Below, piece after piece: positions 14,667 through 36,311 of a stretch of DNA of 64,000 nt (its first letter is position 1; each line of letters starts with the position of its first letter). A program made the position numbers and the translations under genes. The notes beneath the pieces are model-generated. The model was not told the DNA's origin. It worked only from the letters and a program-made list of their open reading frames with translations, and did no database searches. The stretch covers positions 1,494,018 to 1,558,017 of the forward strand of contig NZ_JACVPI010000001.1 of assembly GCF_018881965.1 (NCBI RefSeq), in the 5' to 3' direction. Source of the DNA: Polynucleobacter sp. JS-Polo-80-F4. GTDB taxonomy: Bacteria > Pseudomonadota > Gammaproteobacteria > Burkholderiales > Burkholderiaceae.

Positions 14667-14918
14667 ATGAGTAATAGCAACCCCAACAAAATTCAATTGC
14701 TTCAGGATCCGTTCCTCAATGCTTTGCGCAAAGAGCATGTTCCTGTTTCGATCTATCTCGTAAATGGCATTAAGTTGCAAGGCAATATTGAATCTTTTGA
14801 TCAATATGTTGTGCTCTTGCGTAATACGGTGACGCAGATGGTTTACAAACATGCAATCTCGACGATCGTTCCTGCTCGTGCGATTGATTTTCGTTTAGAA
14901 GAAGCTAGCCCTGTATAA
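14667..14918 (+). CDS. hfq: RNA chaperone Hfq
   Basis: Ring-forming Sm-like RNA chaperone for sRNA-mRNA pairing. 83 residues, shorter than the E. coli protein because it lacks the long disordered C-terminal tail. The Sm1 region runs from [11 protein letters not shown] to about residue 50 with QDPFLN and VNGIKLQG. The Sm2 motif [12 protein letters not shown] is at about 55-66. The ribosome binding site is AAGGAG at 14657-14662. The hfq-hflX-hflK-hflC order is the standard proteobacterial one. The last eight bases overlap the proposed CTG start of hflX. Confidence 0.97.
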
Positions 14919-35092: not shown

Positions 35093-35803
35093 ATGAATCA
35101 AGATCAATTAAAGCAAATGGTGGGCGAAGCAGCTAGAGACGAAGTACTTAAGCTGCCTGCCGGGCAGGTTTTGGGTATTGGCACAGGCTCGACTGCAAAC
35201 TGCTTTATTGATGCGCTTGCTCCGTTTAAAGATCATTTTGTGGGCACGGTATCAAGCTCTAATGCGACTACCGAACGATTACTGAAGCATGGATTTAAAG
35301 TGCTAGACCCAAACGATGTGCAAGGACTTCCTGCATACGTAGACGGCGCTGATGAAATTGATCCTTTGGGCCATATGATTAAGGGCGGCGGCGGGGCGCT
35401 TACACGAGAAAAAATTATCGCCTCCATGGCTAAGCAATTTATATGTATCTGTGATTCATCCAAGCAAGTGCCGGTGCTGGGCAACTTTGCATTGCCAGTA
35501 GAGATCATTCCACTCTCACAGGGCGTAGTTAGTCGTGAGTTAGAAAAATTAGGTGGCAAGGTCAGTCTGCGTTTAGCAAAGAGTACAAGAGCTGATCTCA
35601 ATCAAACGCCAAGCGAGCCCTTTGTAACCGATAACGGTGGCTGGATCTTGGATGTAGCGGGTTTGAAGATTGCTGATCCCTTAAAGATGGAAGTGCAAAT
35701 CAATCAAATCGCTGGAGTGATTACCGTCGGTCTGTTCGCAAAAGAGAAAGCCAATATTTTGTTGGTTAGCAATTCTGCAGGCGTTGAGAGAATTGCACTT
35801 TAG
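35093..35803 (+). CDS. rpiA: Ribose-5-phosphate isomerase A
   Basis: Interconverts ribose 5-phosphate and ribulose 5-phosphate. 236 residues. GIGTGSTANCFID near residue 27 is the phosphate loop. VDGADEIDPLG near residue 83 holds the catalytic-site aspartates, followed by KGGGGALTREKI. The ending segment VGLFAKEKANILLV is typical. It is divergent from tal and followed by a hairpin that also terminates the opposing small RNA candidate. Confidence 0.96.
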   Translation: MNQDQLKQMVGEAARDEVLKLPAGQVLGIGTGSTANCFIDALAPFKDHFVGTVSSSNATTERLLKHGFKVLDPNDVQGLPAYVDGADEIDPLGHMIKGGGGALTREKIIASMAKQFICICDSSKQVPVLGNFALPVEIIPLSQGVVSRELEKLGGKVSLRLAKSTRADLNQTPSEPFVTDNGGWILDVAGLKIADPLKMEVQINQIAGVITVGLFAKEKANILLVSNSAGVERIAL

Positions 35804-35805
35804 AT

Positions 35806-35966
35806 ATTAAAAAACCCGACGGGGTATGCCCATCGGGTTTGTCTGCCATGGTATGCATGGCGCAGGCTCTCGGAAGGTATTTAGTTCCTTAGCCTATAAG
35901 TACATAGATGTACTTATTTGAAGTGGCTTTCGCCAATGTAGCGAAGCACTATAACTGCCTCACCAC
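35806..35966 (-). ncRNA. Candidate small RNA with five consecutive hairpins
   Basis: About 160 nt on the minus strand between yggX and rpiA. It has its own promoter (35973-36000) and a strong terminator (35812-35840 with six Ts). From 5' to 3' I see these stems: imperfect GTG-CTTCGC / GCGAA-AG-CCAC (35923-35949); perfect ATAAGTACAT / ATGTACTTAT (35896-35917); GGCT-AAGG / CCTT-AGCC with internal unpaired bases (35865-35894); GCCATG / CATGGC with a 5-nt loop (35845-35861); and the terminator. No ORF with a ribosome binding site is seen inside. It matches none of 6S, tmRNA, SRP RNA or a riboswitch I know. With Hfq encoded in the same window, a trans-acting sRNA is a reasonable idea but unproven. 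Confidence 0.55.
35812..35840 (-). terminator. Intrinsic terminator of the small RNA, possibly shared with rpiA
   Basis: Arms AAACCCGA (35812-35819) and TCGGGTTT (35833-35840), with additional GGG/CCC pairing inside. On the minus strand the stem is followed by a run of Ts (GGGTTTTTTAATA). On the plus strand only TTTG follows, so rpiA termination would be weaker. Confidence 0.8.
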
Positions 35967-35972
35967 AACTTC

Positions 35973-36000
35973 ATCCTACGCTTATCTTTGGCGGTGTCAA
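35973..36000 (-). promoter_or_regulatory. Sigma-70-like promoter of the small RNA candidate
   Basis: On the minus strand a perfect -35 TTGACA (35995-36000) is followed after 16 bp by TAGGAT (35973-35978), which matches four of six -10 positions including the first two and last two bases. Transcription would start about 35964-35967. It lies 39 bp beyond the yggX stop codon. Confidence 0.6.
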
Positions 36001-36038: not shown

Positions 36039-36311
36039 TTATTCTGCTGGAGGCACATAACCTTGCGCCATGTCAGCTCCACCCTCAAAGAAGTACTTTT
36101 CTACCTGCTTTAAGAGGTACTGACGTGCGCGGGGGTCTGCCATATTGAGGCGGTTTTCATTAATCAACATCGTTTGGTGTTTTAACCAAGCCGCCCAAGC
36201 CTCTTTAGAAACCTGATTCCAAACCTTTTTACCTAGCTCGCCCGGAAGCGGGGCAAAATCCATTCCCTCAGCTTCTTTATTGAGTTTGATACATTGAACC
36301 ATGCGTGCCAT
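36039..36311 (-). CDS. Fe(2+)-trafficking protein YggX family
   Basis: Small cytoplasmic protein of 90 residues linked in enterobacteria to protection of iron-sulfur clusters against oxidation. The N-terminal [27 protein letters not shown] contains the conserved cysteine C7. [28 protein letters not shown] and [17 protein letters not shown] are the family hallmarks. It is 41 bp downstream of argA and probably cotranscribed with it. Confidence 0.94.

Follow-up and report, generated by a model that had tools for sequence, protein, structure and literature searches.

Results

The yggX–rpiA locus

In Polynucleobacter sp. JS-Polo-80-F4, a member of an abundant freshwater group with small genomes, the interval between yggX and rpiA carries a promoter, a chain of hairpins and an intrinsic terminator, all on the minus strand (Table 1). 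The interval was analysed within a stretch of 64,000 nucleotides, which we call the window. We take the yggX family to be the same as PRK05408. The last hairpin of the unit ends about 5 nt from the stop codon of rpiA, which is read from the opposite strand.

Table 1. Features of the yggX–rpiA interval and the Hfq gene, in window coordinates
Feature	Position	Strand	Description	Basis
-35 box	35995..36000	minus	TTGACA	promoter scan and conservation across loci
-10 box	35973..35978	minus	TAGGAT	promoter scan and conservation across loci
Predicted transcript	35808..35966	minus	about 160 nt	start predicted from the usual spacing after a -10 box, end predicted from the terminator
Hairpin 1	35938..35966	minus	tip with conserved CAG-N5-GUG	8/10 pairs changed on both sides
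Hairpin 2	35924..35935	minus	GNRA-type tetraloop in most copies	3/4 pairs changed on both sides
Hairpin 3	35897..35916	minus	tetraloop UCUN or UUCN, A-U closing pair	7/8 pairs changed on both sides
Hairpin 4	35864..35895	minus	outer 4-bp stem and inner GGAA/UUCC stem (helices 4 and 5), A-rich loop	8/9 pairs changed on both sides
Hairpin 5	35845..35861	minus	GCCAUG...CAUGGC	5/6 pairs changed on both sides
Hairpin 6	35808..35840	minus	intrinsic terminator with U tract	6/11 pairs changed on both sides
yggX	36039..36311	minus	PF04362, Fe(2+) trafficking; upstream gene on the strand of the RNA	
rpiA	35093..35803	plus	PF06026; convergent downstream gene	
Hfq gene	14673..14915	plus	PF17209	

An earlier note on this DNA had described a minus-strand unit of about 160 nt with the promoter TTGACA-16-TAGGAT, five hairpins and a terminator. 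All of these elements were located: the two boxes of the window copy are separated by a spacer of 16, and the promoter is retained at each of the 126 loci compared below. The perfect 10-bp inverted repeat that the note placed at 35896-35917 is present, and hairpin 3 is its RNA form. The Hfq gene, said to lie elsewhere in the window, was found as well. Folding of positions 35805-35968 yielded six hairpins and -69.5 kcal/mol (z -7.8), a value equalled by none of 200 shuffled sequences.

Single-sequence scanning for promoter-like sites recovered two, against 1.0 (sd 1.1) in shuffles, and for terminator-like sites likewise two, against 0.9 (sd 0.9); both counts are at chance level. The promoter is convincing because it is conserved in 126 of 126 loci, and not from the single-sequence scan. 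The pattern TTGAC-N17/18-TAGGATGRA occurs once in the genome that contains the window, at the yggX–rpiA site. Between yggX and the window RNA, no terminator of the scanned kind was found on the RNA strand, so that read-through from yggX may also occur.

The longest closed frame starting with ATG, GTG or TTG within the window RNA encodes 15 aa. No reading frame is shared across the 126 loci, whose longest frames encode between 6 and 42 aa, in agreement with the earlier judgement that the unit contains no convincing ORF. Some copies do have short frames with Shine-Dalgarno-like stretches, as a short mRNA for a small protein would, but the start and the length of the frame vary from copy to copy and the sequence changes follow base pairing. 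Of all the readings considered here, we give this one the least credence.

Comparison with described RNAs

A covariance-model search of the interval against Rfam 15, one of the checks that had been proposed, returned no family at the gathering level. With permissive settings, the best sub-threshold matches were mir-1277 (19.5 bits, cut-off 81) and anti-hemB (19.1 bits, cut-off 49.5). The latter (Burkholderia RNA 7, RF02837) resembles the 3' part of the window RNA in having a hairpin followed by a terminator, but the match is far under the cut-off and has no counterpart to hairpins 1 to 3. We also considered a divergent 6S RNA at the interval and rejected it: the true 6S RNA of the genome is encoded at another place (58.1 bits), and the interval does not pass the RF00013 cut-off. 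The two RNAs are alike in being structured and of similar length, and differ in fold, the window RNA being a chain of hairpins.

The structure itself, however, has been published. In PMC8632094 (2021), the HRC-28-1 motif is described from 33 examples, mostly from Polynucleobacter, with a PRK05408 gene upstream and rpiA downstream in the opposite direction. It comprises six stems, the last of which is an intrinsic terminator; the authors considered it not to be a riboswitch, gave its function as unknown, and suggested that it perhaps belongs to the 3' UTR of the gene upstream. The window RNA likewise comes from Polynucleobacter, follows a yggX gene of PF04362, faces a convergent rpiA of PF06026 and has six stems ending in a terminator. 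Because neighbours, orientation and architecture agree, we take it to be HRC-28-1, a match made on these features. Consequently, the earlier claim of a new small RNA holds in one part: there is good support for a small RNA gene that has a promoter and a terminator of its own, but the structure was already on record. In the open-licence literature we found no later paper bearing the HRC-28-1 name and no paper whose title announces a characterised small RNA in Polynucleobacter. A term search of the main text of a transcriptome paper on Polynucleobacter asymbioticus (PMC6629928) gave no hit for small RNA, non-coding, ncRNA or rpiA.

Distribution

Using blastn with the interval, we obtained matches in 25 of 61 genomes. 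All 25 belong to the genus of the window, which contributed 37 genomes to the set, its own included; the other 24 genomes gave none. A covariance model built from 24 sequences (R1) matched 103 of 151 genus genomes at E up to 1, among them G070 at E 0.988 and G161 with the terminator only. A wider model (R2) matched 127 of 186 genus genomes at E up to 0.001. These matches include the terminator remnant of G161 and a copy cut by a contig end in G022; the locus set analysed below leaves out both and consists of 126 loci from 125 genomes. Additional weak matches of 24 to 30 bits appeared at this stage in three genomes (G013, G091 and G141).

Nearly every genome with the RNA has a single strong copy. 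In the metagenome-assembled genome G472 there are two copies, clearly different from one another and at separate places (L135 and L136); they may be paralogues or come from two organisms in one bin. In G161, only the terminator is left between rpiA and yggX (L080); its core is that of the RNA copies, and the RNA appears to have been lost in this one species.

A third model (R3) comprised the promoter and hairpins 1 to 5 without the terminator. R2 had left 60 genus genomes without an intact copy, G161 and 59 with no match; 34 of these 60 were searched with R3, as were six further genomes from the same family. We detected two strong divergent copies of 68 bits, in G001 and G090, and three further weak matches of 17 to 19 bits. 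Both divergent copies lie at yet other sites and have kept TTGAC...TAGGATG and a terminator-like hairpin; by eye, their stems are new and the loops of hairpins 3 and 4 are of the same kind. In the six family genomes from outside the genus, R3 gave no match.

The search beyond the genus covered sets of 300 and 399 genomes of the order, each with a few genus members. In the larger set, 53 genomes matched at E up to 0.1: six of the genus and 47 with weak matches (about 16 to 37 bits, best per genome). Five of these 47 were inspected by alignment and proved to be largely terminator-based. The best non-genus match (37.1 bits, G432) lies at the end of what by eye is a GAPDH-like frame, and R3, which lacks the terminator, finds nothing in G432, one of the six family genomes searched with it. 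No member outside the genus was confirmed among the 300 and 399 genomes of the order, with five of the 47 weak matches inspected, and judging from these searches the RNA is likely absent there. A pattern scan of a collection of genome contigs returned 62 stretches, and the titles of 58 name Polynucleobacter, Burkholderiaceae or beta-proteobacteria. The four outliers (Prevotella, Parcubacteria, Oscillospiraceae and Microthrix) were discarded for their poor fit to R2: the best reached 11.2 bits, and three had nothing at E up to 0.5.

Conservation of structure, promoter and loops

In the first alignment of 24 sequences, 19 of 48 base pairs are changed on both sides and 97.3% of the cells are paired; none of 500 shuffles reached either value. 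A larger alignment of 93 distinct rows leans towards the structure because it was fitted to the model. Here 96.9% of the cells are paired, again beyond all 500 shuffles, and compensatory changes, which the earlier note had named as a check on the stems, occur in 37 of the 48 pairs, a count that, like its counterpart in the first alignment, is inflated by the relatedness of the sequences. When the partners are slid by 1 to 3 columns, pairing in the larger alignment falls to 32-42%. Folding of single sequences, which is independent of the model-fitted alignment, gave exactly six hairpins in 122 of the 126 copies, five in two and four in two. With the last 34 nt removed, z remains below -2 in 125 of the 126 cores (mean -5.0, 30 shuffles each). 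One copy (L083) has lost hairpin 2.

The -35 box reads TTGAC followed by A, G or T at all 126 loci, with a spacer of 17 in 106 and of 16 in 20. The -10 box is TAGGAT at 114 loci, TAGCAT at six, TAAGAT at four, and TAGAAT and TAGAGT at one each. Under a stricter TANNAT rule the promoter is present in 125 of the 126 loci, while among 20000 random positions in the same loci, examined under that rule as a control, 28 had TANNAT and none had both boxes. At every locus the -10 box ends three bases ahead of the modelled start of the RNA. For the first 24 sequences this distance is built in, because the box set their RNA start; in the other 102 loci the start comes from the model, and only there is the fixed distance independent evidence. 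At one locus (L139, G121), a second TAGGATGAAG stretch shortly upstream of the -35 box resembles a duplicated piece of promoter.

Mean identity among 24 loci of the yggX type is 0.75 in the RNA and 0.70 in the promoter, against 0.28 and 0.31 in the flanking DNA. Across 95 aligned rows, the A-U pair closing the loop of hairpin 3 is invariant (95/95), the tetraloop itself being UCUN in 87 and UUCN in eight; in hairpin 1, CAG is found in 90 rows and GUG in 93. A cruder scan of hairpin 3 assigned other loops to 10 of 128 copies, which are presumably mis-assignments. The persistence of the loops of hairpins 1, 3 and 4 on varying stems suggests that these loops make contacts.

The terminator (35812-35840) of the copies between yggX and rpiA is far more constant than terminators require, and relocated copies have other sequences in its place; perhaps the constant terminator also serves rpiA on the other strand.

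Genomic place

Between yggX, upstream on the same strand, and convergent rpiA lie 114 of the 126 loci; the other 12 are found elsewhere. Eight of these belong to a PIN / SRPBCC neighbourhood: in six, the RNA is flanked by a PIN-domain gene of its own strand and an SRPBCC-type gene that runs towards it; one has the SRPBCC gene alone in the stretch examined, and one a PIN gene with an SRPBCC fragment. In L137 (G078), an SRPBCC-type gene fragment beside the RNA, at about 1364-1510 in RNA orientation, has stops inside the match and seems to be decaying. The remaining four loci are single cases: beside a LysR gene and azlD, by a ChrR-type cupin gene, by a TctC gene, and after a gene for a radical-SAM/HemN_C protein that is presumably hemW. 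At the LysR, cupin and TctC loci, where shorter unrecognised frames are also present, the nearest upstream gene recognised by Pfam lies on the other strand, and the RNA cannot be a 3' UTR of that gene. The stretch behind rpiA was examined in 11 genomes with a relocated copy: in 10, yggX comes next and too close for the RNA to fit between the two genes; in the eleventh (G145), yggX was not found behind rpiA. In more distant members of the genus that lack the RNA, what separates yggX from rpiA is a plain terminator or a short gap.

These arrangements bear on the 2021 proposal that HRC-28-1 is a structured 3'-UTR element of its upstream gene. The prevailing position downstream of yggX on the same strand (114/126) fits that proposal, and so does the gap in the window, free on the RNA strand of terminators of the scanned kind. 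It is at odds, however, with a promoter present at 126 of 126 loci, with the 12 copies situated elsewhere, and with the plain terminator or short gap of genus members without the RNA. A 3' UTR of yggX would always lie 3' of a co-oriented gene, which is not what we observed at the LysR, cupin and TctC loci. We consider this reading very unlikely.

Another possibility ties the unit to rpiA, as a cis-acting antisense or terminator element for this convergent gene. The terminator ends close to the rpiA stop codon, it forms a hairpin on the other strand too, and opposite-strand echoes of the terminator recurred in our searches. Yet the unit lies wholly outside the reading frame of rpiA, and no rpiA adjoins it at 12 of the 126 loci, which makes such a role more doubtful still.

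Discussion

Sequence comparison shows that promoter, five hairpins and terminator have stayed together at several sites in the genus that are unrelated to one another, and the status of this unit as an independent gene is strongly supported at the sequence level. Compared with HRC-28-1 as published from 33 examples, the set described here comprises 126 loci, all with a promoter of their own and 12 of them away from yggX–rpiA, together with two divergent copies. The small RNA reading was right in kind, and "new" was half right: the motif is a published one that now looks like an independent gene untied to its neighbours. The point added here is that the RNA looks like an independent gene, equipped with start and stop signals, and occupies different places in different related bacteria.

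The explanation that we consider best overall, and probable, is a small RNA that has an independent gene and acts in trans, with loops as contact sites. A sigma-70-type promoter of its own would drive transcription, and the product would be a stable RNA of about 160 nt whose 5' end lies at the foot of hairpin 1. Action in trans is suggested because the neighbours change while the RNA stays unchanged. Contact would be made by the loops of hairpins 1, 3 and 4, for which the stems would act as scaffolds.

As to what these loops may contact, our first choice, held tentatively, is that the RNA pairs with mRNAs through them with the help of Hfq. Trans-encoded small RNAs that depend on Hfq have their own promoter, a terminator with a U tract and no conserved ORF. 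The window RNA shares these features, with Hfq encoded in the same genome, but differs from this class by the near absence of an unpaired seed stretch: base pairing takes up nearly all of the RNA, and little of it stays single-stranded to act as a classical seed.

The main rival, which we regard as possible though on balance unlikely, is a protein-binding or protein-titrating RNA in which the three conserved loops are recognised by a protein and not by mRNAs. The nearly full pairing into six neat hairpins, the persistence of the loops where the stems have been replaced and the mostly GNRA-type loop of hairpin 2 would all suit such an RNA. However, by eye the three conserved loops are unlike each other, so that there is no repeated motif pointing to the titration of one protein, and the genome gave no ProQ/FinO match at E up to 0.001. 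Less probable again is an undescribed kind of genus-specific, loop-displaying RNA that moves as a cassette of promoter, six hairpins and terminator, with stems that are freely replaced around three persisting loops, and whose partner would be a protein or core cellular RNA rather than a set of mRNAs.

A fixed RNA target was also considered. Hairpin 4 of several relatives (e.g. L026) has up to 12 nt complementary to the 5' end of 16S rRNA. The 12-nt match occurs in one copy, and 64 of 128 copies have only 6 nt; the matches exceed those in mononucleotide shuffles, but the copies are related. The match is not conserved across the family, and we rejected 16S pairing because a fixed target should keep the pairing sequence fixed.

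If the gene is independent, the published motif would have to be re-filed from 3'-UTR element to small RNA gene, and deletion and pull-down experiments on it would be simple. Copies that lie elsewhere separate the function of the RNA from that of its usual neighbours.
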